Origin: Candidatus Woesearchaeota archaeon
GTDB lineage: Archaea; Nanobdellota; Nanobdellia; Woesearchaeales; JACPJR01
NCBI GenBank assembly: GCA_016187565.1
Contig: JACPJR010000015.1
Coordinates: forward strand, 1 to 64,000
DNA: 64,000 bases
Reading direction: 5' to 3'
The notes below the pieces were generated by a model. The model searched no databases, was not told where the DNA came from, and saw nothing but the letters and a program-made list of their open reading frames with translations. The translations under genes and the position numbers were made by a program. Below are positions 12,108 to 52,186 of the stretch, in pieces. The first letter of the stretch is position 1; each line of letters starts with the position of its first letter.

Positions 12108-12160
12108 CTCCCCTCACTTTCGCTACGGTTAGGGTTTGATTTCCAAGATATGTTTCGTTT

Positions 12161-12279
12161 TCATTTGTTTGCTGGGTTAATACCCTGCCCCTTGGGGCGA
12201 CGTCCTTGTTTAATGTCTGCCGTTCCCAGCAAACATTAAAAATACCCCACCGCTTGCGGTGATTGGGATTTTTATTTTC
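12161..12279 (-). repeat. Three-hairpin dispersed repeat, copy 1
   Basis: About 118 bp that reappear, inverted, at 52070-52186. Read on the minus strand it contains three successive hairpins. Hairpin I has stem CACCGC-AA-GCGGTG inside flanking AAAAAT/ATTTTT arms. Hairpin II is ATGTTTGCTG-GGAA-CGGCAGACAT with a GNRA-type loop. Hairpin III is GCCCC-AA-GGGGC. GTTTGCTGGG and CCCAGCAAAC could also pair as an alternative outer helix. Compared with copy 2, hairpin I shows an A-T to G-C double change that keeps pairing. It lies 54 bp upstream of the leuS reading frame. The rest of the 12108-12481 spacer holds the palindromic promoter and no gene that I can see. Confidence 0.75.
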
Positions 12280-12318
12280 CCTTACTTTTCTTGTTCATGT
12301 TTCAGAATCTTCGAGGTT

Positions 12319-12356
12319 TATATAAAGGTTTTGACATAAACCAAAACCTTTATATA
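12319..12356. promoter_or_regulatory. Bidirectional palindromic promoter (two TATA boxes in 15-bp inverted repeats)
   Basis: Arms TATATAAAGGTTTTG (12319-12333) and CAAAACCTTTATATA (12342-12356) are exact reverse complements around an 8-bp spacer. Each arm contains a TATA box preceded by a BRE-like run, and the boxes point away from each other: one toward leuS and one toward the secreted-protein gene at 12482. Archaeal TATA/BRE logic makes this a divergent promoter, and the symmetry could also be a repressor site. Confidence 0.65.
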
Positions 12357-12481
12357 GGAGTTGCTACTCCGCAATGGTACTCTTTGGGGGAATGTATGGT
12401 AGATAGTTGGTCTGTAGCTAGTAATTATGATGGTTATATCGACTCAATAAAGCTTAATAAATACTGATGTAGGTGACCCAT

Positions 12482-14059
12482 ATGAATGAAGAAAGCAGTT
12501 CTTTGACTTCCCTCGTAAATAATAACGGATATTCTCCTTTGCAGGCAAGGGCAGGAAGACGAGCAACATGGCTCACCGCAGGAGCTGCTGCACTCGCATC
12601 CTTAGCAGGAAGTGTGCTGCCATCAAGCGCAGAAGAAGCAAAAAAACCCGAGCCAGTTTCTTACTACAGTGGTGGTAACCGTCTTGAACTTCATTCTCCA
12701 AACGTTGTTTTTGATATGAATGGCAATGGAAATACTACCGATGATCCTGTTTTCAATCGCTATGCTCTTGTCCAGACTCCTGGAACACCTACGGAAAAAG
12801 CAGGAATTTCGACAACCTATGCAAGTGCATTTAACACCTATGGTGTAAGGAATTTTAAAACTCTCGAAGAGTTTCTCCGTGCAAATCTTGCCTTTGAGCG
12901 TGGACATCCTGAAGTTATGGGTAACCTTGCGCTTGCCTTTGAACCCTCTGCTGGTGATACCTCAACAGTATTTCTCAACTCTTTTTATAACCCAGAAGAT
13001 CCAATGACTGGTAGTGGTACGGTTACAAATCCAGCTACTTACAAAAGTATTAATGATCTTGTTGAAGGAGGAAGGCTCGTCGATGTTCTTACTGCTGATC
13101 CAAAGTCATTCGGTGAACCTAACTGGGATTATGTTGCAGGAAATCATCCAAATCGAGCATTCCATATTCTTCGTTACCGTGTAGGTTCGGATGGAGAAAA
13201 GCTTCCCTTTAATTCCGACGAAGGAACGCCAGTCTATCATCTTCTCGTACAGCCTGAAGCAAAGGGAGATAGACCAGCACACACTGTTCTTATGAATCCT
13301 GCGCATATGCGAAGAGAACCTGAACCTGTTCAACCAGATACGGTTACGGTTACTAACACAGACACCCTTACCGTTGATCGCTATATTTTGCCTACTGATC
13401 GTGATTTCCTTGTTGGAGGTTATGGACGTAGTAATCCAACAACCTATGGGATTCAGGGTGGACTTGCCTGGGAACGCATGAACGTTGAAAATCCAAGCGC
13501 TGCTCACCCAGACACCAGCAGAACAACGCTTTATGTCCTTGGATTCTTGGGCGTGGGAAATGGATCCAATCGCGAAGAACAAACGGTACGAATGCTTGAC
13601 ACTCCTGAAATGATAAGTGATTACCGCCAAAAAGGAAATGTTGATCTCTCAACGAGAGAAGCAGGAGTAAGGGTTGGCCTGGGTAATAAAGGCTTGATTG
13701 GACTCGAAGGCTCATTGCTTCATCAAAATATTGATGGAATTGTTGATCCATGGTGGGAGCATAGCACTCCTGACGGATCATTTACTGATGTTGAATATGA
13801 GCCAACAGTTGATGTTCATAGTAGCCGTTTTGGATGGCGGGCTGGAGCAGATATTGCGCTTCAGTTGTTCCCTGATAGAGTAATGGTTGGTTTGAATGCT
13901 GGCTATAGCCGCATTCCTGACGTCAATGTAAATCATGATAAATATACGGTACAAGGTACGAGCGGCATTTATGTAGGAGGAAGTCTTGTGGTCAATATTG
14001 ACAATCTTGTAGGGGGCAAACGAAACGTAGAAGTATCCTCAGGAAGTCCAGGACGATAA
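12482..14059 (+). CDS. Secreted beta-rich protein with Tat-like signal peptide
   Basis: The 525-residue protein is not recognised as a named family. The N terminus has GRR followed by a hydrophobic alanine-rich stretch ending SSAEEA (about residues 20-50), a twin-arginine-like signal although the full Tat consensus is not met. The central part (about 60-300) is acidic and asparagine-rich. The last ~200 residues alternate polar and hydrophobic residues with many glycines, for example RVMVGLNAGYSRIPDV and GIYVGGSLVVNI. This resembles antiparallel strands of a bacterial outer-membrane barrel. There is no C-terminal membrane anchor. The ATG follows GTAGGTGA. It is the first gene of a same-strand surface-protein run up to 24098. 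Confidence 0.75.
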   Translation: MNEESSSLTSLVNNNGYSPLQARAGRRATWLTAGAAALASLAGSVLPSSAEEAKKPEPVSYYSGGNRLELHSPNVVFDMNGNGNTTDDPVFNRYALVQTPGTPTEKAGISTTYASAFNTYGVRNFKTLEEFLRANLAFERGHPEVMGNLALAFEPSAGDTSTVFLNSFYNPEDPMTGSGTVTNPATYKSINDLVEGGRLVDVLTADPKSFGEPNWDYVAGNHPNRAFHILRYRVGSDGEKLPFNSDEGTPVYHLLVQPEAKGDRPAHTVLMNPAHMRREPEPVQPDTVTVTNTDTLTVDRYILPTDRDFLVGGYGRSNPTTYGIQGGLAWERMNVENPSAAHPDTSRTTLYVLGFLGVGNGSNREEQTVRMLDTPEMISDYRQKGNVDLSTREAGVRVGLGNKGLIGLEGSLLHQNIDGIVDPWWEHSTPDGSFTDVEYEPTVDVHSSRFGWRAGADIALQLFPDRVMVGLNAGYSRIPDVNVNHDKYTVQGTSGIYVGGSLVVNIDNLVGGKRNVEVSSGSPGR

Positions 14060-39355: not shown

Positions 39356-40270
39356 TCATTTGTGTGTATCCTCCTCACGCAAAAATGCATAATTTAACTT
39401 GAGAATTTTGATAAGGAAATCAATAATGAGTTCATACTTTTCATCATTTGCTTGTCTAACCGAATGGAGATAATTATTGCGCTGTTTCATATAAACGTTG
39501 ATCTCAGGATATTGGTGTTTTTTGAGTAAAAAGTTCATGATCAGTCGTGAGACTCTTCCATTACCGTCAACGAACGGATGAATGCTAACAAACTTCATGG
39601 AGGTTATTGCTGCAAGTTCAAGGGGATGAAGCGTACTTTTGTTTTCTTTGTACCATTTGATAAGACCTTTCATCAGTTTAGGAACAGCTTGAGATGAGGG
39701 AAAGATAACATCTTCTCCGGTGACAAAGACTTTAATTTCTCTATATTTCCCTGCATTTTTGTTATCAATATCTGTAAGAATATATCTATGTATTTTTTTA
39801 ATTAACTCTTCATTAAGATCACCATTGCAACGTTCGAGAAGTTCAATTGCTTGCTGGTGATTCTTCGTTTCATATACCTCTCTTAGATCTGAGTCTTTTG
39901 GAATGATTTTTTCATTAAGAATCAATGCGGTTTCTCGAAGAGTTAGGGAGTTTCCTTCTATCGCATTGCTGTTATAGGTTAGTTCAGTAAAATACCATTT
40001 TTTAAACTGTTCCTGGCCGGATTTCCCCCCCTTCTCCAAATACGTATTAAATCGATGCTTTATTTCTTCAATAGCAACACAGTCTTCTTTCTCGAGATAG
40101 TGATATCCTTCTACAATAAACTCCTCTTTCTTCTGCTGGAGTTCTGCCTGACTAATCTTTCCTTTCCCAATATATTTACTGAATTTCTTCGATCTATTAC
40201 CAATACGTCTATTTTTAACGAGGTAATGATAGGATTCTCCATTCTGTTTTCTTACTTCATGATAGACCAT
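39356..40270 (-). CDS. Fic-domain protein (AMP/nucleotide transferase family)
   Basis: The 304-residue protein carries the Fic active-site motif HPFVDGNGRVSR (about residue 208) intact, including the catalytic His and the anion-binding GNGR. Before it, SNAIEGN (about 105) is the S/T-x-x-x-E-G inhibitory motif that blocks ATP in autoinhibited class II Fic proteins. A basic N-terminal region (about 1-60, including KKFSKYIGKG) precedes the domain. Fic proteins usually transfer AMP from ATP to target proteins. The ATG at 40270 follows a TATA box by about 24 bp, consistent with a leaderless transcript. It lies just downstream of the PEP-mobile gene block. Confidence 0.9.
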   Translation of the reverse strand: MVYHEVRKQNGESYHYLVKNRRIGNRSKKFSKYIGKGKISQAELQQKKEEFIVEGYHYLEKEDCVAIEEIKHRFNTYLEKGGKSGQEQFKKWYFTELTYNSNAIEGNSLTLRETALILNEKIIPKDSDLREVYETKNHQQAIELLERCNGDLNEELIKKIHRYILTDIDNKNAGKYREIKVFVTGEDVIFPSSQAVPKLMKGLIKWYKENKSTLHPLELAAITSMKFVSIHPFVDGNGRVSRLIMNFLLKKHQYPEINVYMKQRNNYLHSVRQANDEKYELIIDFLIKILKLNYAFLREEDTHK

Positions 40271-40280
40271 AACGATCCTA

Positions 40281-40320
40281 TGTGGGCACATATTTATATA
40301 CCTTTCTATTTGTGCCCACA
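40281..40320 (-). promoter_or_regulatory. Fic promoter enclosed in a perfect 10-bp inverted repeat
   Basis: TGTGGGCACA (40281-40290) and TGTGCCCACA (40311-40320) are exact inverted repeats 20 bp apart. Between them on the minus strand lie AGAAAGG (BRE) and TATATAAATA (TATA). One arm covers the region just before the start codon and the other lies upstream of the BRE. A repressor bound here would block TBP/TFB. Confidence 0.7.
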
Positions 40321-40334
40321 AACTAATCTTTACG

Positions 40335-41696
40335 TCAAGAAATCCTTCTAACCACTCCCCGCTCTGCATCTACTTCGACTGCATCACCGTCATGAAGAAT
40401 TTTTGTTGCAATTTTCGTGCCCACAATGCAGGGGATGTGCATTTCTCTTGCAATGACTGCAGCATGTGATGTCAGACCACCCTCGTCAGTAACAATAGCA
40501 GCACATTTTGCCATGGTTGGTGTAAAGGTTGGAAAGGTGTATGTTGCAACAAAAATATCCCCATTATTTACTTTGGCAAGGTCATCAGAATGACTGATGA
40601 TTTTCACTGGTCCTTGTGCCTTTCCTCGACAGGCAACAATACCTGTAATTTGTTTGATTGATTTCCATGGTTTTTCGAGTAAAGTAATCGTTTTCTTGAC
40701 GACGCGTTGGTCGTAAGTAATAAAAATCCTTCCCTTCAAGAAGTGATAGATCGCCGAGCTTTCTGTACGCTGGTTAAGTTTTTCCGGGATTGTTCCCTTA
40801 GTTAAGAACTCTTTAATTTCTTTACTACAGCAATTTGCAGCCAGAGCTAATGAAATGTTTGCCTTTGTAGCAAGATATTGATAAAATGGTTGGAGGAGGA
40901 ACATAGCTTCCTTCCACGTGTCAATACGATCAGTCTTGAGAAAGCTATAAGTATGGACAATTTCAACCTTTTGTTTGAGTGTTATGTCCAAGGTATTGAG
41001 GAATTGACGGTATCGTTGTTCTGCTTGAGAAAAAGCTTTCTGCTGTGGCATTTCTTGTTTGTTGGTTTGCTGACGAAGTTTGACATAATCCTTCATCGTA
41101 TAGGGGTGGTCATAGACACTGTACATGTTAAGCCACTGATACTTTGCTAGCCAGGCTTCTCCGGTAAATCTAAACAGATCATTGAGCATATTTTGGTAAA
41201 CAATAGGTTGTGTTAAGGCAGTTATTGTTTCTGCATGATCTCCTAACTGTTGTAATACTTCTGGTTCTATAAAATAAATAACCGCCCATGCACCAAAAAT
41301 GTACTCACAGAACTCATAGGCTTTTTTGTTGTAATCGTCGAATGCCTTAAGAATGGTTGTAACATTTCTCTTTTTAAAACTGCATGATTGGGATACTGCC
41401 TTAGCAGCCTGAAAAACAGCATTCTTTTTTTTTGGATATTCGTGGAGATGACGCTTCCATTCAGCCTGCAGTTGTATGCTTAATGCTTTGAGTGTTGCAA
41501 GAAACGAATCTTCATGGGCATAAGCCTCAAAAACGTTATGACGAGAAACATCACAGTAACTTTCTGTTCCGTGGTTTAGAATCCACCAAATGTATACTTC
41601 TTCACGACTGATGCATGATTCTCGTGTAACGAATTTTATATGATTTCCTTTTACGAGGATTTTTTTTGGATATTGAATCACATATGGTTGTATCAT
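40335..41696 (-). CDS. PEP-mobile-domain protein, paralogue 1
   Basis: The 453-residue protein ends with a PEP-utilising-enzyme mobile domain (about 345-453): VACRGKAQGPVKII, ATYTFPTFTPTMAKCAAIV, then TDEGGLTSHAAVIAR with the phosphorylatable His411. The N-terminal ~340 residues are helical and divergent, sharing with its paralogues the AKYQWLNMYSVYD-type motif (about 210). PEP synthase, PPDK and rifampin phosphotransferase have this swivel domain next to an ATP-grasp domain, but no ATP-grasp or PEP-binding barrel is seen here. It is the last PEP gene of the block, 25 bp after paralogue 2. Substrate and phosphate donor are unknown. Confidence 0.85.
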   Translation of the reverse strand: MIQPYVIQYPKKILVKGNHIKFVTRESCISREEVYIWWILNHGTESYCDVSRHNVFEAYAHEDSFLATLKALSIQLQAEWKRHLHEYPKKKNAVFQAAKAVSQSCSFKKRNVTTILKAFDDYNKKAYEFCEYIFGAWAVIYFIEPEVLQQLGDHAETITALTQPIVYQNMLNDLFRFTGEAWLAKYQWLNMYSVYDHPYTMKDYVKLRQQTNKQEMPQQKAFSQAEQRYRQFLNTLDITLKQKVEIVHTYSFLKTDRIDTWKEAMFLLQPFYQYLATKANISLALAANCCSKEIKEFLTKGTIPEKLNQRTESSAIYHFLKGRIFITYDQRVVKKTITLLEKPWKSIKQITGIVACRGKAQGPVKIISHSDDLAKVNNGDIFVATYTFPTFTPTMAKCAAIVTDEGGLTSHAAVIAREMHIPCIVGTKIATKILHDGDAVEVDAERGVVRRIS

Positions 41697-41721
41697 GGTA
41701 TTTCTTTCTTATGACAAGGTG

Positions 41722-43134
41722 TCACACCAATTTTTTCACCACACCATTGGTTGCATCAACCTCAACCAGGTCATTGTCCTTTAAGCGCTGTGTTACTGCC
41801 TTGACTCCAACAATACAAGGAACTCCCAATTCTCTGGAAACTACGGCTGCATGACAGGTTATGCCGCCTTCTTCAGTAACAATAGCTCCTGCCTTTTTCA
41901 TGATGGGTACAAATTCTGGTCTCGTGTTGTATGTTACCAGTATCTCTCCTTGTTTCATCCTTGAAAAATCTTTAATACTAATAATAACTCTAACTCTTCC
42001 CCTGGCTTTTCCGTTACAGGCAGGCATGCCCTTGATCTCCGTACCTTCCATACAAATAGCGGCATCATAGACTGCTTTGATTTCTTCTGCATCCTTTCCA
42101 TACCACACAAATGATCCTTGCTTATAATCGTAAAGGCCACAGCTTTTGTTCCCAATAGCTTTTAACTCTTTTTCTTTTTTTGAGAAAAGATCAGTAACAA
42201 TAGTATGGGCAGAGAGTTGTTCGAAAAGGTGATAATCAATGGATCTTCTTCTCCCAATCTCCTGCAAAAATCTTTTTAAGAGAACATTTCCTTTTGCCTG
42301 GCATCGTTTCCTCATATCTCTTCGCTTTGCTAAGAGTGCCATAAATTGAAGAAAGAGCAGAGTCTTAGGAGGTAAGTTATATTTTTTTAAGATCATTTGC
42401 TTTGCTTTTCGTGTCTCTTCAATTCTTTTATTTATTTCAGTAAGTCTTTCTTTAGCGTTAGATAAATGTTGTAATCGTTCCAAAAAGTGAGAAACAGGTT
42501 CTATCTCGATATATCCGTAGTTATTGGTATACCAAAAAAATTCCTGCTGATGCTGTTCAATTGTTTTTTTTGAGAGGCAAAGTTTTATTTTCAGAAGGCT
42601 AACTTCCTCTTCCTGAGTATATGACATCTCATCCGGCAACAATAATGTCTTAATCTCTTCCTTCGATAATTTCATGGTATGCTCTTCTTCCATAATCTCT
42701 TGTAGCTGCTCTTCCCAACACAAATCAAAGGAATCAATAAAGATAAATGGTTTCCATACCGATGAATATAATTGATTAACATTGGCAAGCGACAGTCTCA
42801 ATTCCTCATCTGAATGCTTTTCAAGAAGCACATATCGCTGGAGAGCTTTGTCTAATTCTTCTTCCCTTGTATCATGTTCTTTTACTAATCGTTTGCTATA
42901 ATCCTTTTCAGAAAAAAGATTTTGGAGTATACTTACTGAGAGCCGTTCTAATCCATCTATATATAGTCCCCAGTTTCCATGGCCGTTAAAGCAAAAGGCC
43001 ATCATCGTTTCATAGCCATGATCACTATCAAAAATAGCTGGGTTGATTGGTGCAGTCATATAGAAAAATTTAGTCTCCCCTCCCTGATTATACCACGTTG
43101 TTTTTCGAATAAAGTCAATATGTCTCTGTCTCAT
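41722..43134 (-). CDS. PEP-mobile-domain protein, paralogue 2
   Basis: 470 residues. The N terminus has the TTWYNQGG variant of the family WY motif (about 12). The helical middle has QEFFWYTNNYGYIEIEPV (about 220) and an R-R-D-M-R-K block (about 275). The C-terminal swivel domain (about 365-470) has GTEIKGMPACNGKARGRVR, VTYNTRPEFVPIMKKAGAIV and TEEGGITCHAAVVSR with His428. All hallmark residues of the phosphohistidine loop are present. No ATP-binding domain is visible. It is 31 bp after paralogue 3 on the same strand, probably one transcript. Confidence 0.86.
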   Translation of the reverse strand: MRQRHIDFIRKTTWYNQGGETKFFYMTAPINPAIFDSDHGYETMMAFCFNGHGNWGLYIDGLERLSVSILQNLFSEKDYSKRLVKEHDTREEELDKALQRYVLLEKHSDEELRLSLANVNQLYSSVWKPFIFIDSFDLCWEEQLQEIMEEEHTMKLSKEEIKTLLLPDEMSYTQEEEVSLLKIKLCLSKKTIEQHQQEFFWYTNNYGYIEIEPVSHFLERLQHLSNAKERLTEINKRIEETRKAKQMILKKYNLPPKTLLFLQFMALLAKRRDMRKRCQAKGNVLLKRFLQEIGRRRSIDYHLFEQLSAHTIVTDLFSKKEKELKAIGNKSCGLYDYKQGSFVWYGKDAEEIKAVYDAAICMEGTEIKGMPACNGKARGRVRVIISIKDFSRMKQGEILVTYNTRPEFVPIMKKAGAIVTEEGGITCHAAVVSRELGVPCIVGVKAVTQRLKDNDLVEVDATNGVVKKLV

Positions 43135-43165
43135 TCAATCGCCTTTTTTACTTTTTTTGACGTCA

Positions 43166-44629
43166 TCATTGTTCGGTGATCTTTATAATTCCTTTGTCTG
43201 CATCAACGCTAACAACCATACCGTCTTTTAACACCTTTGTTGCAATCTGCGTTCCAATAATGCAAGGCACGTTTAATTCTCTTGCGATAACCGCTGCATG
43301 GCAGGTAATGCCGCCCTCATCAGTAATAATAGCTGCTGCTTTTTTCATAAGAGGAACGTATTCTGGCCTTGTCATATGGGCAACGAGAATATCCTTTTCA
43401 TTAAATTTCCCAAAGTGTGATTCACCAAGCACAACTCTAATAATGCCCGTTGCTTTTCCACGACACGCTGTTGTCCCTTTAATATTTTTTCCAATATTTT
43501 CAAATGATTTTGAAAGAAGCTGATAATACTCTTTTGCTTCTTCTTCAAGCACTCGAATAATTTGGTTTTTTGAATAGATGCTCATGATAATTTCCTGGCG
43601 TTTTGCAATGATCTGTTGGTATTCTTTTTTTGTTCTTCCTTTTGCAATGTCTTCTGCTCGGCAAACCCGCCATTCCTTGTACGGTATGTCAGTAATCTCT
43701 TCCATGCGCCTGATGCACTGATCATAATAGTGATTCAACAAAAGCACGGCTTTCTTTCGATGATCACGGAGGTAGGTTAACTCCTGAAAAAAATAGAAGA
43801 TGTTATCAAGATCGTCGCTCCAAGTATACTTTTCTCGAATTTTTTGATGCTTTTTTGTCCAATCTGTTGTGAGATCAATAATCTGCTCCTCAATAACCTC
43901 TTTTTTCTCCAGAATTAACTCTTGTAATCTTTTTTCAAAATCCTCTGTGGTTAAGATTTTAGTTGACTCCCAGCTGTTGTCAATGAAAAAGTATTTTTTC
44001 GCGTGATTTTGCAGAAATGCTTTCGCACTGGTGACTCCTGAAATGCTTTTTTTCTTTCCAAGGCATTCCTTAGCAAATGTAAGCATGCTGAACCTTTCTT
44101 CCTGTACATAGTTATGCTGTGGATAACGAAGCATTGTTGACCTCTCTTTTTGGCTCAGTTTGCAACCTTCTTTCTTGCAATACTCGTCGAAGAGATCATC
44201 TCCGTTAGGATCAAAGAATTCACAGACAAAGGCTAATTTCCAAAAAGCAAAATTGTGTTCATCAAGAGTAGTAAGTGTTTCTTTAACTGTTTTAAAATCA
44301 GCCGTTGGAAAATCAATAACCAAAAGTTTCTCATGGAGTGCTTCGATTTGTGCAATCTTCTGGTGAACTGGCTGAACAACACTATCAACATATGCACGGT
44401 TTTTCTCTTGCCTCTTAAGCATCTCCCTTGCTTTACTGTTCAATTCGTCAAGTAAGAAAAAGCCTTCACAATGGTGCCTGTTTTTCAAAAGAAAAAATCC
44501 AAGTTCTGTGCCAATACATTCCAATGCTCCATCACCACCTGTCAAAATATAATATGCCCTTGAATTCGCCGCCATGTGGTACCATTTCTTTCTCTGAATG
44601 ACATTGATGATATCTTTTCTAAGATTCAT
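43166..44629 (-). CDS. PEP-mobile-domain protein, paralogue 3
   Basis: 487 residues, the closest relative of paralogue 4, with which it shares most of the C-terminal 110 residues. Features in order: RKKWYHMAANSRAYYIL near the start, AKKYFFIDNSWESTKILT (about 215), YLRDHRKKAVLLLNHYYD (about 290), then the swivel domain with VAHMTRPEYVPLMKKAAAI and TDEGGITCHAAVIAR, His444. Its start codon overlaps the stop of paralogue 4 by 4 bp, implying coupled translation. Function unknown beyond likely phosphohistidine formation. Confidence 0.87.
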   Translation of the reverse strand: MNLRKDIINVIQRKKWYHMAANSRAYYILTGGDGALECIGTELGFFLLKNRHHCEGFFLLDELNSKAREMLKRQEKNRAYVDSVVQPVHQKIAQIEALHEKLLVIDFPTADFKTVKETLTTLDEHNFAFWKLAFVCEFFDPNGDDLFDEYCKKEGCKLSQKERSTMLRYPQHNYVQEERFSMLTFAKECLGKKKSISGVTSAKAFLQNHAKKYFFIDNSWESTKILTTEDFEKRLQELILEKKEVIEEQIIDLTTDWTKKHQKIREKYTWSDDLDNIFYFFQELTYLRDHRKKAVLLLNHYYDQCIRRMEEITDIPYKEWRVCRAEDIAKGRTKKEYQQIIAKRQEIIMSIYSKNQIIRVLEEEAKEYYQLLSKSFENIGKNIKGTTACRGKATGIIRVVLGESHFGKFNEKDILVAHMTRPEYVPLMKKAAAIITDEGGITCHAAVIARELNVPCIIGTQIATKVLKDGMVVSVDADKGIIKITEQ

Positions 44630-46092
44630 TGAATCACCGTTATAATTCCCTTTGTTGCATCAACTTCTACTTGCATGCCATCCTTTAATACCTTTGTTGC
44701 CACCTGCGTCCCAATAATGCAGGGTACGTTTAATTCTCTTGCGATAACCGCTGCATGGCAGGTAATGCCGCCTTCATCGGTGATAATAGCAGCAGCTTTT
44801 TTCATGAGTGGAACGTATTCTGGCCGAGTCATTGGTGCAACGAGAATGTTTCCGTCTTCAAACTTACCAAAATGGGTTTCTCCCATCACGATTTTTACAA
44901 TTCCTTGTGCAATCCCTTGGCACGCTGGTGTTCCTGTAATGCTTTCACCTTTATGTATAAATTCTTTTGAGAGAAGGTCATAAAATAATTTCCCATGTTG
45001 AGGATCAACTGTCCAAATCTCTTGACCAGAGGAAAGCTTCATAATAATCTCTTTCCTACTCGCAAAAATTTTTTCATATTCCTCAGCGGTTCTGCCTTCT
45101 TTCAGATCACTTACTTTAGCAAGACTCCATTCTTCAAATGACACTCCAGTAATCTCCGAAATCCGTTGATACAGTACATCATACCAATGATTGTTCAGCA
45201 GGACATATTTTTTTCGCTCATCACGAAGGAACATTAATTGCTGAAAAAGATAGATTACACGTTGCAATCGAGTGTTTATATTACGTTGTTTGATTATTTC
45301 TTTTTGTTTCGCATGCCAATCGGTTGTTAATTCCTCAATCTGTTTCTTTATCTCTTTTTCAGGTAATGTCATCAACTCTTTCAATCGCTGCTTAAAATCC
45401 TCAGATGTCAAGATTTTTGTCTGAGCCCAGCTATTCTCAATGAAGAAATATTGAGCAGCATGATCTTTAAGAAAGGTACGGACTACTGGATTTTTCAGGA
45501 TCAGTTTTTTTGTTTTACAAGCAAGAGCCATCTCGAGGATTGCAAGACGTTCTTTTTGCCCATAGTGGGGTATTAAAGGGCGAAGTAAAAGATTAAGTTC
45601 TTCTCTGTCTAGGGATACTTTTGCATCTGCTATTTCCTTATGCAACAGTGCTTCACCGTGTGGATCAAAGATATCACAGATAAAAACTTCTTTCCACAAG
45701 TCAACGCTGTTTTGCTCTAATTCCCTGAGAAGTTGGAGGATTTTCTGAAATGATGCGGCATCGAGAGTATTATTTCTCTGGTTATCATAAAAAGATTCGC
45801 ACTGTCGCATTTTTTCCAAACATCGTTTTATAACATGATCAATACATGATTCTGAGGATCGGTTTTCTATTTGATCTTTGAGAATAGTGGTTGTTTTTAC
45901 TAGAAATTCTTGATCAGGAAAAAAACCTTCAAACATTTTTCGTTCCCGAATAAGAACAAAGGCTAAATCTACATCCATACACGTAAGTCCTCCATCACTT
46001 GCTCCCCAGATATAGCAAAGTTTTCCATGCGCTCCCTGGTAATACCATTTCCTCTTAGTTATTGCATCAATGATCTGTGGTTTAGTTTTCAT
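44626..46092 (-). CDS. PEP-mobile-domain protein, paralogue 4
   Basis: 488 residues. KRKWYYQGAHGKLCYIW lies near the start, AQYFFIENSWAQTKILTSED about 220, FLRDERKKYVLLNNHWYD about 295. The swivel domain (about 380-488) has VAPMTRPEYVPLMKKAAAI and TDEGGITCHAAVIAR, His446. The pairing with paralogue 3 in sequence and order indicates a tandem duplication. The double-hairpin sequence at 46125-46213 lies directly upstream, in what would be its leader. Confidence 0.87.
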   Translation of the reverse strand: MKTKPQIIDAITKRKWYYQGAHGKLCYIWGASDGGLTCMDVDLAFVLIRERKMFEGFFPDQEFLVKTTTILKDQIENRSSESCIDHVIKRCLEKMRQCESFYDNQRNNTLDAASFQKILQLLRELEQNSVDLWKEVFICDIFDPHGEALLHKEIADAKVSLDREELNLLLRPLIPHYGQKERLAILEMALACKTKKLILKNPVVRTFLKDHAAQYFFIENSWAQTKILTSEDFKQRLKELMTLPEKEIKKQIEELTTDWHAKQKEIIKQRNINTRLQRVIYLFQQLMFLRDERKKYVLLNNHWYDVLYQRISEITGVSFEEWSLAKVSDLKEGRTAEEYEKIFASRKEIIMKLSSGQEIWTVDPQHGKLFYDLLSKEFIHKGESITGTPACQGIAQGIVKIVMGETHFGKFEDGNILVAPMTRPEYVPLMKKAAAIITDEGGITCHAAVIARELNVPCIIGTQVATKVLKDGMQVEVDATKGIITVIQ

Positions 46093-46124
46093 GTTCGTTG
46101 TTCTTTATCTTTTTACTACAACTA

Positions 46125-46213
46125 TAGGAAAAGACATTAATTTTCGTAATAATTTGTATGTCTTTTCCTAATAAGCAAAGGACATAAAGTTACGGTTATT
46201 AGTGTCCTTTGCT
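46125..46213. repeat. Tandem double hairpin between PEP paralogues 5 and 4
   Basis: Hairpin 1: TAGGAAAAGACAT (46125-46137) with ATGTCTTTTCCTA (46158-46170), 20-nt AT-rich loop. Hairpin 2: AGCAAAGGACA (46174-46184) with TGTCCTTTGCT (46203-46213), 18-nt loop. Both stems are perfect. The layout copies that of the 35741 and 38697 elements, with different arm sequences. It begins 4 bp after the stop codon of the 46217 gene in the direction of transcription. Confidence 0.7.
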
Positions 46214-46216
46214 ACA

Positions 46217-47683
46217 CTAGTCAGTATGAGTGATGATGGTTATTTTCCCGATTTTCAAATCAAGCTCAATATCATTACCATCCTTGAGCACTTTGGTACC
46301 AACTTTTGTGCCGATGATACACGGAATATGTAATTCCCGACAAATAACGGCTGCGTGACAGGTAATGCCACCTTCATTAGTTATGATTGCCCTTGCCTTC
46401 TTCATTAAGGGAACCATATCTGGTCGTGTCATTGAGGTTACTAAAATATCTCCATCTTGCATGTGTTTTGCTCGGTCAATAGTAAGGATAATTCGTGCTT
46501 TTCCTCTTATTGTTGTATCCTCACCTCGAGAGGCGACTGTTCCTTGTAAAGTCGTCGTTTGTGTTGGGGAAGGTAGTACGAGCTCTGTCAGCAATGCTGC
46601 TTCTTTATTAGTATATAGATGAAGTTTTTGGTCAGTAGTCATAAAGATGACTGCATGTTGCCATCGCTCTTGAAGCATTTTTCGATCAATTTTTCCGTTT
46701 AATAGATATGGAATCTCTGTATAGATTGTTGCGGCAACTTCCTCTAGAGGAAGTGATGTTCTTTTTACAATTTCCTTTAAAAATTCATGCTGATAATAAA
46801 GTGCTTCCAAGCATGCTGCTTTTCGGTCATCCTGCCAATGAATAAAGAAGTCAATAAATTCAACGAGCAATTGAAGCTCGTGTGAAGCGTGTAGCGTATC
46901 AAGGATTTCTTTCTTCCTTTCGTTACCTGTTTCATAGTTTTGGGTAATCTTTGTCTGCTCTCCCTTTGCTTTCTCAAAACGTTTTTTAACTTCATGTTCA
47001 ACATGCTCTTTTCCAAGAAAAAGTGCACGTTCATAATTATTTTCTACCCAGTGAAATTGTTTGACGTGTAAGGTAATCATCTGCTGAACAGCCTTACTCT
47101 TAAGGCCTTGTTTTTTTGCTCCTTCTGTAATAGTCAGCAAAGAAGATTCACAACGACTACTGAACGATGGTTTTGATGGGTGGGTGAGCTCAATAAAATA
47201 TTGCTCAGCGTGTTTTCCCAATAATTCTTTCAGATGATTTTCAGCAAAAAAAGCAAAACTATTGGTAATAACAGGCATTGCATATTCCTGCAGATATAAT
47301 TCATTAAATCTCATGAAATAATTGAGAAATTCTTCCTCAGAACATCGTGAAAGATCAGCAGCGTTAAGGATTGTATAGTATTCCTGTAGTTCTTTTCGAT
47401 AGTGCTGCCATTGACGGTAATACGGGGTAAGAAACTGATGGTCCTTCATAAGAGCAGTAAATATATTTTTCCCGATACGTTTACAATCGTTCATTTCCCA
47501 TATCCAGACTGCTTTATTTTCATTGAAAAGAGTAATAGTTACCTTATGATACAAAGGGAATTGTTTCGGTAGCAAAACCATATTTGCATAAAAGGGACTA
47601 AAAAACGTATGTATATACCCAGACATTTCCTCAACATACCACTCAGGATGTTCAAATCCAAAAAGTTCTTTTGTGTTGTTCAT
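46217..47683 (-). CDS. PEP-mobile-domain protein, paralogue 5
   Basis: 488 residues. It begins with FGFEHPEWYVEEMSGYIHTF. The middle motif is KQFHWVENNYERALFLGKEH (about 225), then FIHWQDDRKAACLEALYYQ (about 280). The swivel domain is GTVASRGEDTTIRGKARI, VTSMTRPDMVPLMKKARAI and TNEGGITCHAAVICR, His443. A short lead-in insertion (GEDTT) before the GKA motif sets it apart. Its ATG overlaps the stop of the Schlafen-AlbA-type gene by 4 bp, tying that regulator to the block. Confidence 0.86.
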   Translation of the reverse strand: MNNTKELFGFEHPEWYVEEMSGYIHTFFSPFYANMVLLPKQFPLYHKVTITLFNENKAVWIWEMNDCKRIGKNIFTALMKDHQFLTPYYRQWQHYRKELQEYYTILNAADLSRCSEEEFLNYFMRFNELYLQEYAMPVITNSFAFFAENHLKELLGKHAEQYFIELTHPSKPSFSSRCESSLLTITEGAKKQGLKSKAVQQMITLHVKQFHWVENNYERALFLGKEHVEHEVKKRFEKAKGEQTKITQNYETGNERKKEILDTLHASHELQLLVEFIDFFIHWQDDRKAACLEALYYQHEFLKEIVKRTSLPLEEVAATIYTEIPYLLNGKIDRKMLQERWQHAVIFMTTDQKLHLYTNKEAALLTELVLPSPTQTTTLQGTVASRGEDTTIRGKARIILTIDRAKHMQDGDILVTSMTRPDMVPLMKKARAIITNEGGITCHAAVICRELHIPCIIGTKVGTKVLKDGNDIELDLKIGKITIITHTD

Positions 47684-49011
47684 GTATGTTTCTCTGTTAA
47701 AGATTTATTAATTTCCCAGTACCCTCCTTTTGCAGAACCTAGTCTTTTCAATAGCCCTTTTTTCTTTAACGCCTCTATATTTTTATCAATAGCCGTCGTG
47801 CTTATGCCTATCGTCTTAGACATTTCCCTCTTAGAGATTCGTGGATTCTTAGCTATCAGATTGAGTATTCTCTTTTGGTTTTCTACCAACCCTTCTACCA
47901 ACCCATCTACTAACCCTTCCGTCTGCTCTATTTTCCTCTTAAATAGAGTAATAAAGATCCCAGCCACTATCTTGAAATCGGTGGTGGGCTCTTTGGATAA
48001 AATTAGTTTAATACCACGCCCCCATTTTTCACCAAAATGGATACGATGAAACATCTCTGCAATAAGCTCGTTTCTTCGTCTCGAAACTTCCTCTTTCTTG
48101 ATTTTCTCAATCGTAAGGCCACCATACAAACCACCAGGATTCCTTATCTCTAATCTGCCTTTAAAGATAGCAATGTTTACAGAATCAAATTCATGATAAT
48201 CACGGTGACAAAAAGCGTTGATTATAGCTTCACGGAATGCTGCACGATCTATTTCAGGCACGTCGATCCGATACAACCCCTCTACTCGCATGCCAATGTG
48301 GATATTCTCTAAAATATACTTTTCCGCTTTTTCAATCAATGTAAAGACATCTCCCACAAAATCCTGCATATCAATGGTGGTTGCAGTAGTTTCACCAAAG
48401 ACGGCACAACGTAATCTAGCATTAGGAAAGAAATCTTCGGGATGCTTTCCAAAAAAAAGAACAGCAGTATTCAACAGTTTCTCTTCTTTCATTAAGCCTA
48501 ATTTTTCTAGTGAACTTTTAACAGAACCGTGTTTTAAACCTGCTAATTTGACAAACGCTTTTATCTTTTTTTCATCAATATCCTTCAATTTCGCCTTAAG
48601 GCAGAATTCAATATCCCACTGAAGTTTATCTTTATTTTTTCTTATGATGATATGTTCTATTTCTTGAGGACTTATTTTCTTATCTTCATCCCCAACACGG
48701 ACATAAGCACGACCATATGCGTAATAAGGAATGTCATTCCCACCAAATTCAACGCGAACACACTTCTTTGCTTCCAAAACTACTTCGTTAATTGTTGGGA
48801 ATATTTTCGGCTCAATGTGCTGAGCGATAGTTTGAGATATTTCCCGAATAGTATTTTCGGTAACTGTTTGCCCAACGATTTCCCCGTTATTTTTAATCCC
48901 AAAATAGAGTTCACCTTTCTGATGCTTATTCAGAATAGAGACTATTGAAATCATAGCTTCTTTTATTTCAGAGGTGGATTTTTTGAGTTCGAGGTGTTCA
49001 GATTCTTTCAT
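47680..49011 (-). CDS. Schlafen AlbA_2 / AAA_4-type ATP-binding protein with C-terminal HTH
   Basis: The 443-residue protein has an N-terminal AlbA_2 domain (about 1-115): EHLELKKSTSEIKEAMISIV, GELYFGIKNNGEIVGQ and YVRVGDEDKKISPQEIE. A RecG-C-like GHKL ATP-binding half follows (about 240-370): REAIINAFCHRDYHEFDSV, RLEIRNPGGLYGG and GEKWGRGIKLI. A winged helix closes it (about 390-435, NPRISKREMSKTIGISTTAID). Such proteins are usually called transcriptional regulators, and some are tied to mobile or defence regions. It lies between paralogues 6 and 5 with a 3-bp gap and a 4-bp overlap, so it is part of the same transcript. Confidence 0.88.
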   Translation of the reverse strand: MKESEHLELKKSTSEIKEAMISIVSILNKHQKGELYFGIKNNGEIVGQTVTENTIREISQTIAQHIEPKIFPTINEVVLEAKKCVRVEFGGNDIPYYAYGRAYVRVGDEDKKISPQEIEHIIIRKNKDKLQWDIEFCLKAKLKDIDEKKIKAFVKLAGLKHGSVKSSLEKLGLMKEEKLLNTAVLFFGKHPEDFFPNARLRCAVFGETTATTIDMQDFVGDVFTLIEKAEKYILENIHIGMRVEGLYRIDVPEIDRAAFREAIINAFCHRDYHEFDSVNIAIFKGRLEIRNPGGLYGGLTIEKIKKEEVSRRRNELIAEMFHRIHFGEKWGRGIKLILSKEPTTDFKIVAGIFITLFKRKIEQTEGLVDGLVEGLVENQKRILNLIAKNPRISKREMSKTIGISTTAIDKNIEALKKKGLLKRLGSAKGGYWEINKSLTEKHT

Positions 49012-49014
49012 TTT

Positions 49015-50583
49015 TTATCCCAATTTCCTGACTAGTCCTTTGGTTGCATCAACCAAGACAACATCGCCATCCTTGAGTACTTTTGTTGCAATTTTAGTCC
49101 CCACAATACAGGGAATACCAAATTCCCGAGAAATAATAGCAGCATGCGTTGTGATGCCTCCCTGTTCAGTAATTACTGCTTTTGCTTTCTTCAGAGCTGG
49201 AACAAATTCAGGCGTGGTGTTGTTCGTTACAAGTATTTCTCCTTCCTTAAATGCAATAATCCCTTCATGGTTGTGGACAACCCTTACTATTCCGGTTACT
49301 TCCCCAATACATGCTCCTGTTCCTCTGATCTCATTAACGATTCCATAGTCATCATAAAATAGTTCAGAAGGTATCTGCTCAGCCTTTTTACCTGCAATAA
49401 TCTTATAACCCCTTTTATCGAAATAAATAAAGCATTTCTGTAACCTTTCTTGAAGTGTTACGCGATTCACTTTTTTTTTAAGGAGGATATCCTTAATCTC
49501 GGGTTGGACCGTGTAAAGTGCTTCTTCTCTTGAGATCTGGCATCTACGTGCGAGTTCATCGCAAAAAAGAAACAGGAAATGATTGAGGCGCAGGACCCCT
49601 TGTTTTCGTATGTCTTGTACATACGTAAAAAGATCTGCAGTATAGATGAGATTTCTCAGGTAAGCAGAGGCGTTATATCTCCTCAAGAGTGCCTTTTTTC
49701 TTTCCAGATTATAAGCATATTGCTGTCGTTGTTGTTTCAATGCTCTTGTTAATTGTCTCTTCAACTGATTATTCTGTTTCGCTATCTTGATAAATTCTTC
49801 AATAAAATGCTCTGGTCTCAGTACAAAGGAGAGATAATAATTATTCCTCATCCAGTAATATCGTTGAGCATGTTGGATCAGTTTCTTCATCATTAAAGGA
49901 TGTGCTTGGAGCGTATGCATGACCTTGTTTACCCTCCCTTCTTGAATACTCTCTCGTAAACCTTTATCATTGAATAAGAGTATACCCAAACTCAGAAGTT
50001 CTTCATGCTCTTTTTTGATAAAGGTAGGATACGTTGGACGAGTCAATAGTTCAATGTCCCGAGCCAATTTTTCTGGTTGTGTCTTAAGTTCTTGACTGAT
50101 AATTTCAGCAAGCCAGTCATTTGCTCCACTACCGAGGAACGAATCAGTGATGTATCCCCATGAAGCTGTGCTTACTTCACTCCAAAAAAGCTTTTGATAC
50201 CAGCGATACAGTTTTTCATCAGTAAGACGAGTTATATTTTGTTTTTCTGCTTCCGTTGTAATCCGCACAAAAATTTTCCAATCATTAAAAAAATGAGTTG
50301 CTACTCTGTCTGCAAATGCAGGAGACGTATGGATTTCTTTAAGGACTCTTTTCCTCACTCGTTCAAGCTCGCTCTGGTCAGAGAACCAATCAGCCTTTTC
50401 TCCAGCAAACGAAGCACCCCATTTATACATAAAATCGAATCGGCGATGGCCGAGGCATGCAAAGCTTAATCCCTGTGGGAAAAGCGTGTGTAAATACCAA
50501 GAAAACCGTTTTACATACCATTCTCTCTTTTGCCAAAACACTGGTGGAACCTCTTTAAGCTCTTTGATTAAAAACGGTTTCAT
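49015..50583 (-). CDS. PEP-mobile-domain protein, paralogue 6
   Basis: The longest paralogue, 522 residues. It starts with a short lysine-rich segment, then QKREWYVKRFSWYLHTLFP (about 19). The middle motif is QRYYWMRNNYYLSFVLRPEH (about 245), followed by a basic coiled-coil (QLKRQLTRALKQQRQQYAYN) and an R-x-x-G/R-x-L-R-L-N-H block. The swivel domain is GTGACIGEVTGIVRVV, VTNNTTPEFVPALKKAKAVI and TEQGGITTHAAIISR, His480. The motif has Q in place of the usual E before GG, which may change the loop chemistry. It starts at the last base of paralogue 7's stop. Confidence 0.86.
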   Translation of the reverse strand: MKPFLIKELKEVPPVFWQKREWYVKRFSWYLHTLFPQGLSFACLGHRRFDFMYKWGASFAGEKADWFSDQSELERVRKRVLKEIHTSPAFADRVATHFFNDWKIFVRITTEAEKQNITRLTDEKLYRWYQKLFWSEVSTASWGYITDSFLGSGANDWLAEIISQELKTQPEKLARDIELLTRPTYPTFIKKEHEELLSLGILLFNDKGLRESIQEGRVNKVMHTLQAHPLMMKKLIQHAQRYYWMRNNYYLSFVLRPEHFIEEFIKIAKQNNQLKRQLTRALKQQRQQYAYNLERKKALLRRYNASAYLRNLIYTADLFTYVQDIRKQGVLRLNHFLFLFCDELARRCQISREEALYTVQPEIKDILLKKKVNRVTLQERLQKCFIYFDKRGYKIIAGKKAEQIPSELFYDDYGIVNEIRGTGACIGEVTGIVRVVHNHEGIIAFKEGEILVTNNTTPEFVPALKKAKAVITEQGGITTHAAIISREFGIPCIVGTKIATKVLKDGDVVLVDATKGLVRKLG

Positions 50584-52025
50584 CAGGGTTTCCTCTCTTT
50601 TGTTCGTTCGAGTATTCTTATTACTCCAGATTCAGCATCAACCTCAACAATGTCTCCATCATAGAGAATTTTTGTGGCGATCCTTGTTCCCACAATACAG
50701 GGTACTTTTAATTCTCTGCTCACAATGGCTGCATGTGAGGTCATACCACCCTCATCAGTAATAATGGCTACTGCCTTGCGCATGGCAACGATATAATCTG
50801 GACTGGTCATGGGTGCAACCAGAATATTTCCTTTTTTCATCTTTTCAAGACTTTTGGGAGTGTGGAGGATTTTTACCATGCCCTTAGCCTTTCCCCTACT
50901 TACTGGCAATCCCTGAAATTGAGTTATAGTTTTGTCAATATCGGTGGTGAAGTAAGGCCTTGTTAATTGTTCTGCTTCTTCTCCGGTGTAATAACGGATT
51001 CCCTCTCCTTCGATAAAATGTTCGAGGAAAACAGAAAACCGTTCGTGAACATCATGCTTTTTCCCTTTATTCATGACATCGAAAAACTCTTGACAGGTGT
51101 AGTAGCACAATTCTTCAAATGGAATACCATGAACCTTTCCTGCATATCGCATAAAGACATCAATATAATGATGGCCTAACAAGTTGTACTTCTTCCTGAG
51201 ATCCTGCCACCAGATTGAAAAACTGAGCTGTTTACCTATCTCTTGGATTTCTTTACTTACCTTATATGCGTTGATGATTTCCTGTTTTCTCTGATTAATT
51301 TCATGAGTATATCTATCGATTTCAGTAATTTTTTCTTTTGCTTTTTTTGAGGTAATTTTATTTAGTTCTTTTCTGAAGAAAGAAACAGGCAGGATTTGTG
51401 AACCGTGATAGCTATTGTGAAGCCAAAAATACTGTTGTTGGTATCTCTGTAATGCTTTTTCCTGTTCTGATTTGGAAAGAATACCCTTTATCATGAACAA
51501 CTCACACTCGGCAACCTGAAAGAAAGACAATGCCTCAGGTGCGGTTATTGCTTCAAAAATTTCAAAAAATTGATCTTTATGTTGTGAGAGGATCTTTCGC
51601 TTAAGGAGCGCTTCACCACCCCAATTTGCCATCTCGGGAAGGAATCCATAAATCCAGAACTTCAGATATAGTTCATGCCATTGATTAAAGAGTGAGACTG
51701 CATTCTTTTGCTGTAATCCTTCTTTGGTTATCCTTGCCTGTACGTTATCCATATCTTTAATAATGGTTCCCCAATATGCGTACCATTTCTCTCGTTCTTT
51801 TTTAGGTAATATGTGGGTCACAAACAGTTTTTCACCATGATCCCGAAGCTTTTCATAATCACAAATAGCAATGACCTTTTCCTCTTTCATCAGGGCGAGG
51901 ACATCTGGCCAGGGAGCAACAAATACACCCGTAAAACGAACTATTGGCTCCATAAAATAATCAACATAGATTGGCTTTGCATCAATCGGACCCCACTTAA
52001 AGAGCTCTTTTTTTGGATCAATCAT
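50583..52025 (-). CDS. PEP-mobile-domain protein, paralogue 7 (first gene of the block)
   Basis: 480 residues from the ATG at 52025, which follows GGTGAGGAAG. The frame is open 66 bp more, but that part overlaps the structured repeat edge. Features: IYVDYFMEPIVRFTGVF near the start, QYFWLHNSYHGSQILPVSF (about 220), WWQDLRKKYNLLGHHYIDVF (about 275). The swivel domain is GLPVSRGKAKGMVKIL, VAPMTSPDYIVAMRKAVAII and TDEGGMTSHAAIVSR, His431. It is the promoter-proximal gene and diverges from the GT2 synthase. No clear TATA box is seen upstream other than AT-rich sequence within the repeat. Confidence 0.86.
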   Translation of the reverse strand: MIDPKKELFKWGPIDAKPIYVDYFMEPIVRFTGVFVAPWPDVLALMKEEKVIAICDYEKLRDHGEKLFVTHILPKKEREKWYAYWGTIIKDMDNVQARITKEGLQQKNAVSLFNQWHELYLKFWIYGFLPEMANWGGEALLKRKILSQHKDQFFEIFEAITAPEALSFFQVAECELFMIKGILSKSEQEKALQRYQQQYFWLHNSYHGSQILPVSFFRKELNKITSKKAKEKITEIDRYTHEINQRKQEIINAYKVSKEIQEIGKQLSFSIWWQDLRKKYNLLGHHYIDVFMRYAGKVHGIPFEELCYYTCQEFFDVMNKGKKHDVHERFSVFLEHFIEGEGIRYYTGEEAEQLTRPYFTTDIDKTITQFQGLPVSRGKAKGMVKILHTPKSLEKMKKGNILVAPMTSPDYIVAMRKAVAIITDEGGMTSHAAIVSRELKVPCIVGTRIATKILYDGDIVEVDAESGVIRILERTKERKP

Positions 52026-52069: not shown

Positions 52070-52186
52070 AAATAAAAATCCCAACCGCCACAAGCGGCGG
52101 GGTATTTTTAATGTTTGCTGGGAACAGCAGACATCAAACAATAAGGCCGCCCCAAGGGGCGGGGTATCAACCCAGCAAACAAATGA
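52070..52186 (+). repeat. Three-hairpin dispersed repeat, copy 2
   Basis: About 117 bp, the inverted copy of 12161-12279. Hairpins on the plus strand: CCGCC/GGCGG within AAAAAT/ATTTTT arms, ATGTTTGCTG-GGAA-CAGCAGACAT, and CCGCCCC-AA-GGGGCGG. It fills the divergent spacer between PEP paralogue 7 and the GT2 gene. The rest of that 341-bp spacer holds only the GT2 promoter (CTTAAATAG near 52280) and ribosome site (AGAGGTATT). Confidence 0.75.

Follow-up and report, generated by a model that had tools for sequence, protein, structure and literature searches.

How can a protein that carries a phosphohistidine swivel domain act as a phosphotransferase when the domain expected to charge it is missing from the same polypeptide? 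This question is raised by seven genes in a stretch of 64,000 nucleotides from a Candidatus Woesearchaeota archaeon (GCA_016187565.1, contig JACPJR010000015.1, positions 1 to 64,000; hereafter the window). An initial annotation of these genes suggested that their products either rely on an ATP-grasp partner encoded elsewhere or act on diverse targets through variable N-terminal domains. Here we propose that the seven genes probably encode the large subunits of a split two-component dikinase, in which an ATP-grasp partner is shared by swivel modules of many specificities.

The array and the fold of its proteins

The array runs on the minus strand with intergenic gaps of −4 to 124 bases (Table 1). 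The coordinates and lengths of its seven same-strand coding sequences (453–522 residues) agree with the initial annotation, and the catalytic His of the GGxTxHAA motif stands in every protein at exactly the residue first given. The array is not unbroken, however, as an eighth gene, which probably encodes a regulator, is interposed. Nor is the locus an isolated one: it belongs to a genome-wide swivel set. The 1.94 Mb genome contains 23 PF00391 domains, of which 14 lie on the same contig as the window and at least one is in a full-length PEP synthase (L033), and a second run of swivel genes begins 14 kb beyond the array (C15:66–86 kb). The Fic/DOC gene at the end of the array is probably co-transcribed with it and is a putative member of the system. 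Just upstream of the array, at window positions ~52070–52165, the minus strand has two GC-rich stretches that resemble each other and look like hairpins, ccccgccccttggggcgg and ccccgccgcttgtggcgg. The start of protein 1 at 52025 is consistent with the MIDPKKELFKWGPID of its orthologues.

Table 1. Genes of the swivel array and its flank in the window.
Feature	Position	Strand	Remarks
RD-HD swivel protein 1, 480 aa	50583..52025	-	PF00391; His431; orthologous group A (DPANN and CPR genomes; orthologues, tree)
RD-HD swivel protein 2, 522 aa	49015..50583	-	PF00391; His480; AlphaFold model
AlbA_2/Schlafen + HATPase_c_4 + winged-helix protein	47680..49011	-	Pfam; 4-base overlap with next gene
RD-HD swivel protein 3, 488 aa	46217..47683	-	PF00391; His443
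RD-HD swivel protein 4, 488 aa	44626..46092	-	PF00391; His446; 46% identity to protein 5
RD-HD swivel protein 5, 487 aa	43166..44629	-	PF00391; His444
RD-HD swivel protein 6, 470 aa	41722..43134	-	PF00391; His428
RD-HD swivel protein 7, 453 aa, most divergent	40335..41696	-	PF00391; His411; AlphaFold model
Fic/DOC protein	39356..40369	-	PF02661 E 3e-22; start overlaps array end by 35 bases

A Pfam search matched PEP-utilizers in all seven array proteins (E 4e-23 to 2e-27) and, in keeping with what had been read from the sequence, found neither an ATP-grasp domain nor a PEP barrel in any of them. The seven gave no other Pfam match above the curated cut-off, and each chain terminates after the swivel domain. 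The initial annotation had proposed comparing the N-terminal halves with the rifampin-binding domain of rifampin phosphotransferase (RPH), and AlphaFold models of two array proteins, built from alignments of 75 modules (49015–50583) and 65 modules (40335–41696), both match RPH. The first model (pLDDT 90.3, pTM 0.89) has RPH as its best PDB match (5fbu, E 2e-14, TMq 0.54), and the top PDB matches of the second (pLDDT 82.5) are all RPH entries (5hv2 and 5fbu, E 6e-13 to ~1e-12, TMq up to 0.49). For both models, the confident matches that reach through the N-terminal half are RPH entries only; structural matches confined to the swivel have TMq values of ~0.2. Because the two models match RPH alone over their length, each array protein is predicted to consist of an RPH-type substrate-binding domain and a His swivel domain (RD-HD) and to lack an ATP-grasp domain (AD). 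Identity to RPH in the structural alignments is 14–18%, and the N-terminal halves by themselves gave no significant match in a sequence search of the PDB, RPH included, so the homology of this half to RPH rests on the models and on the full-length profile, which aligns to RPH residues 445–866. Pfam together with the structure matches of the two models rules out that the N-terminal half hides an ATP-grasp domain or a PEP barrel. A viral origin was also considered and rejected, as BFVD yields swivel-only matches.

The profile alignment further suggests how the substrate side is built. It places a [RKQ]-D-x-R-K block, present in most modules, over RPH R666-E667-Y-P-K670, with Asp in place of Glu and a second Arg gained; several modules deviate. 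In RPH, Arg666, Glu667 and Lys670 are catalytic, and this block holds the product phosphate (PMC4844700). Based on this placement, D-x-R-K most likely serves in catalysis on the substrate side. Only 61 of 133 modules have Asp where RPH has Glu667, and the Lys position varies as well, so that other chemistry may operate in some modules. Among the motifs thought to be common to the seven N-terminal halves, D-x-R-K is present in six, whereas the WY motif is found in only five. On the swivel side, the His is kept in all 132 modules that have a residue in that column. Within their own genome, substrate domains share a mean identity of 15% and swivel domains 47%, which bears out the strong divergence of the N-terminal halves and makes action on diverse targets plausible, although these variable halves belong to one known fold, that of the RPH rifampin-binding domain.

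The ATP-grasp partner and the fused forms

Searching the window's genome for an unfused PPDK_N gene, as a source of the missing AD, returned one. It encodes a stand-alone AD of 315 residues (L032:5744–6691, corresponding to C14:125744–126691; PF01326 E 5e-107) and does not adjoin the window's array. The same genome encodes an RD-HD-AD protein of 871 residues with the swivel motif GGVSQHAS (L031:4288–8820), directly followed by another RD-HD and then by a short HAD-like gene, as well as a further PPDK_N protein of 912 residues and one full PEP synthase.

In relatives, the AD lies much closer to the swivel modules. It is adjacent to or overlaps RD-HD genes in L125, L098, L084, L080, L134, L136 and L139, and is found inside the array in L087. 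It also occurs fused to them, as AD-(RD-HD)4 in L074 and L075, AD-(RD-HD)3 in L082, (RD-HD)2-AD in L076 and RD-HD-AD in L116. One genome, G041, has an open frame of 4,201 residues (L071:15314 to L072:10918; C37 ~70.3–82.9 kb) with 7 or 8 RD-HD modules, containing at least seven swivel domains, and a C-terminal AD, and a 2,815-residue chain of at least five modules in L073 has no AD. As far as we know, such giant fusions would be without precedent as multi-module kinases of their class. An RD-only protein with no swivel domain is present inside an array of G043 (L083:4898–6160).

The AD and the arrays also occur together across genomes. Among 60 genomes of the same order, each from a different family, 18 have at least four PF00391 domains and were counted as array genomes. 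A high-scoring AD outside PEP synthase, classified by hand from two tables, is present in 16 of these 18 but in just one of the remaining 42 (Fisher p 1.7e-11, not corrected for phylogeny). In G012, a genome 90% complete, nine swivels and no AD were detected. This co-occurrence, the stand-alone PPDK_N gene of the window's own genome and the ADs that relatives have within their arrays, overlapping them or fused to them all support the suggestion that the partner is encoded elsewhere.

A catalytic cycle can be proposed by analogy with RPH, HpeHI and PpsAB. In HpeHI and PpsAB, the swivel His on the large subunit receives the β-phosphate from the ATP-grasp subunit and passes it on to the substrate, which the large subunit also binds. 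HpeH can exchange phosphate between substrates on its own, HpeI being needed for ATP, and the two form no stable complex (PMC12167813). In the archaeon, each RD-HD gene product would have a helical substrate-binding domain of the RPH type and, after it, the phosphohistidine swivel domain. The separate 315-residue ATP-grasp protein would bind ATP and place the β-phosphate on the swivel His, whereupon the charged swivel would turn to its own substrate-binding domain and phosphorylate the substrate of that module, with net formation of AMP and Pi. We propose that this one ATP-grasp protein would charge many modules and thus sustain a bank of ~20 kinases with differing specificities. In some relatives, the entire kinase bank would be one giant polypeptide.

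Neighbouring genes and candidate substrates

Genes next to the arrays offer some indication of what such kinases could act on. We compared 71 same-strand genes lying no more than 150 bases from a swivel gene with a background of 90 genes further off in the same loci. Phosphatase families account for at least 17 of the 71 neighbours versus 2 of the 90 background genes (p 3e-5, uncorrected for relatedness), where 17 is the sum of the family counts: HAD (at least eight, from one family only), histidine phosphatase (three), metallophosphatase (two), HD (two) and LMW-PTP (two). Outside this set of 71, a DPANN neighbour consists of a HAD fused to a His_Phos domain (L079:14582–15676), and CPR loci have neighbours of similar kinds. 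The adjacent phosphatases would probably either take the phosphorylated products of the kinases as substrates or discharge the carriers. TrmB-like regulators occur within three genes of arrays as well, with 20 in 19 loci (L040, L077, L078, L081, L084, L098, L125 and others); they are also present in the background sample (2 of 90).

Many of the neighbouring HADs have D-x-S/N/W/Y/L/M instead of D-x-D. As the second Asp is missing from these, and as Asn replaces the nucleophile Asp in the HAD-like protein at L029:12158–12853, some of them may be inactive. The corresponding sites in the HAD-like neighbours at L029:5605–6273, 11505–12161 and 12158–12853 and at L030:6621–7319 read DFSG, DLNN, NLDG and DLWG.

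Several of the phosphatase folds found beside the swivel genes (LMW-PTP, histidine phosphatase, HAD, metallophosphatase and HD) include protein phosphatases. The enrichment of these unrelated folds, the similar neighbours in CPR loci and the HAD-His_Phos fusion would also fit a kinase–phosphatase signalling network, in which the modules modify proteins or RNAs through their variable N-terminal domains and the phosphatases reverse the mark. We regard this as unlikely, both because many neighbouring HADs may be inactive and because the characterised relatives of the substrate domain, RPH, HpeHI, PpsAB and CreHI, are all small-molecule enzymes (PMC4844700, PMC12167813). Given these relatives, the targets of the split dikinase that we favour would be small molecules too.

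Some neighbours, read by eye, resemble genes of nucleotide or cofactor pathways. In Moranbacteria, RD-HD genes lie among riboflavin kinase/FAD synthetase-, riboflavin synthase- and lumazine synthase-like genes (L142:3851–19763), and stand-alone ADs are located near PurN/PurH (L087, L032), NadE and an NMN-adenylyltransferase-like gene (L139), and CoaD (L115). It is possible that these riboflavin, purine, NAD and CoA neighbours hint at nucleotide or cofactor substrates.

Pta is encoded within the arrays of G000, G009, G043, G047, G052, G053 and G057 (Pta-like genes at L029:17262–18251 and in L080, L081, L083, L087, L089 and L122). Genes for a hexapeptide transferase, an uncharacterised protein and a HAD-like protein often accompany it in a conserved order. 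Only one of these seven genomes encodes acetate kinase, compared with 17 of 20 Pta genomes that have no Pta in an array (p 0.002), which speaks for a role of RD-HD and AD as carbon- or acid-activation kinases that make acyl phosphates, or ATP from them, and replace acetate kinase beside Pta. This reading is nonetheless quite improbable: an acetate-kinase-family gene is present in G000 (C11), the Pta-adjacent module is not one fixed orthologous group, and at most a few of the ~20 modules would be covered.

Age, spread and relation to known systems

Many clades in a tree built from 133 modules span several families with a single module from each genome. For 120 of 131 modules, the most similar counterpart belongs to a different genome. 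The repertoire is accordingly an ancient and differentiated one. Recent tandem amplification was considered and rejected; only the genes at 43166 and 44626 look like a recent pair (46% identity), and the others are old. Copy number ranges from 0 to 46 PF00391 domains per genome, with 46 in a Nanoarchaeia genome of ~1.5 Mb (L148, G074). Taken by itself, this wide range might indicate lineage-specific amplification without specialised function, that is, gene-family noise. We consider this extremely unlikely in view of the closest relatives in other genomes, the invariant His and the clades with one member per genome across families and domains of life.

The modules are also shared between domains. 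When named genomes were scanned with a four-row RD-only profile of group A, the group of the window's protein 1, orthologues turned up among archaea in Woesearchaeota, Nanoarchaeota and a 'Candidatus ainarchaeum' record and among bacteria in Berkel-, Kuenen-, Parcu-, Moran-, Falkow- and Nealsonbacteria and CPR2. In the group A tree, archaea and bacteria interleave, and well-supported branches force at least three changes. A survey of three phyla used the RD-only profile and scored about nine candidates per genome, so that its counts are lower bounds: the profile matches at least 41 of 193 genomes in the phylum to which the window belongs, at least 30 of 192 of the Moranbacteria genome's phylum and 0 of 148 in the Bacteroidota control (phylum of the Flavobacteriaceae record). 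Orthologues are present in both DPANN archaea and Patescibacteria, and their scatter over both domains points to gene exchange between these two groups of small symbionts.

Tentatively, the picture could be taken further. DPANN and CPR symbionts might share a cell-wide modular phosphorelay, in which one AD feeds 10–45 interchangeable swivel modules, free or chained, each with its own target and phosphatase, and which is passed between the two groups. If true, such a network, whether it served regulation or scavenging, would differ from the single-substrate dikinases. Dozens of module versions are found in DPANN archaea and CPR bacteria, often with phosphatase genes next to them, which points to a large unstudied phosphorylation system, and some DPANN/CPR cells, with genomes of 0.7–2 Mb, spend a sizeable share of their genes on one enzyme family. 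Its architecture, with a single ATP-grasp protein alongside many swivel modules and with phosphatases close by, provides a direct biochemical entry, and the substrates could reveal what these cells take from their hosts.

The same enzyme family has been read as phenol degradation, with phenylphosphate synthase genes reported in hydrothermal-vent DPANN MAGs in which phenylphosphate carboxylase was not found (PMC8091004). The architecture is indeed that of PpsA plus PpsB. That the array proteins are ordinary phenylphosphate synthases for phenol degradation is very unlikely, however, given the lack of the carboxylase and a set of ~20 modules whose substrate domains have a mean identity of 15%, unlike one phenol enzyme.

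Other known enzymes resemble the array proteins in part. PEP synthase and PPDK have the GGxTxHAA motif along with ATP-grasp and swivel domains, but their PEP/pyruvate barrel is missing here and the homology is confined to the swivel. NCBIfam profiles of the same swivel family, those of the PigC/RedH prodigiosin ligases and of PRK08296-type proteins, also match; neither identity was accepted, as the scores are far below the curated cut-offs and there is no sign of ligase chemistry. RPH is the sole full-length structural match, alike in the fold of the N-terminal half and swivel and possibly in the active-site block near Arg666-Glu667-x-x-Lys670, but it has its own AD in the order AD-RD-HD, whereas here the AD is absent or lies on either side of several modules.

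The closest likeness is to HpeHI, PpsAB and CreHI, where a large subunit combines a substrate-binding and a His swivel domain and the ATP-grasp subunit is separate. The swivel-without-ATP-grasp layout has thus been described already for HpeH, PpsA and CreH (PMC12167813), and the array proteins have three features of an HpeH/PpsA subunit: an RPH-type domain directly before the swivel, the His in GGxxxH and a separate PPDK_N in the genome, here not adjacent. Each of these systems pairs a single RD-HD with its AD in a catabolic operon, in contrast to the 4–46 swivels per genome found here, which would largely share few ADs; giant chains in places, adjoining phosphatases and occurrence in DPANN/CPR set the present proteins further apart. 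We did not find the arrays, giant fusions, phosphatase pairing or DPANN/CPR sharing described in the open-access literature, and the multi-module fusions, phosphatase neighbours and DPANN/CPR distribution had also been missed by the initial annotation. The kind of enzyme is known; the strongly expanded form seen here appears to be new.
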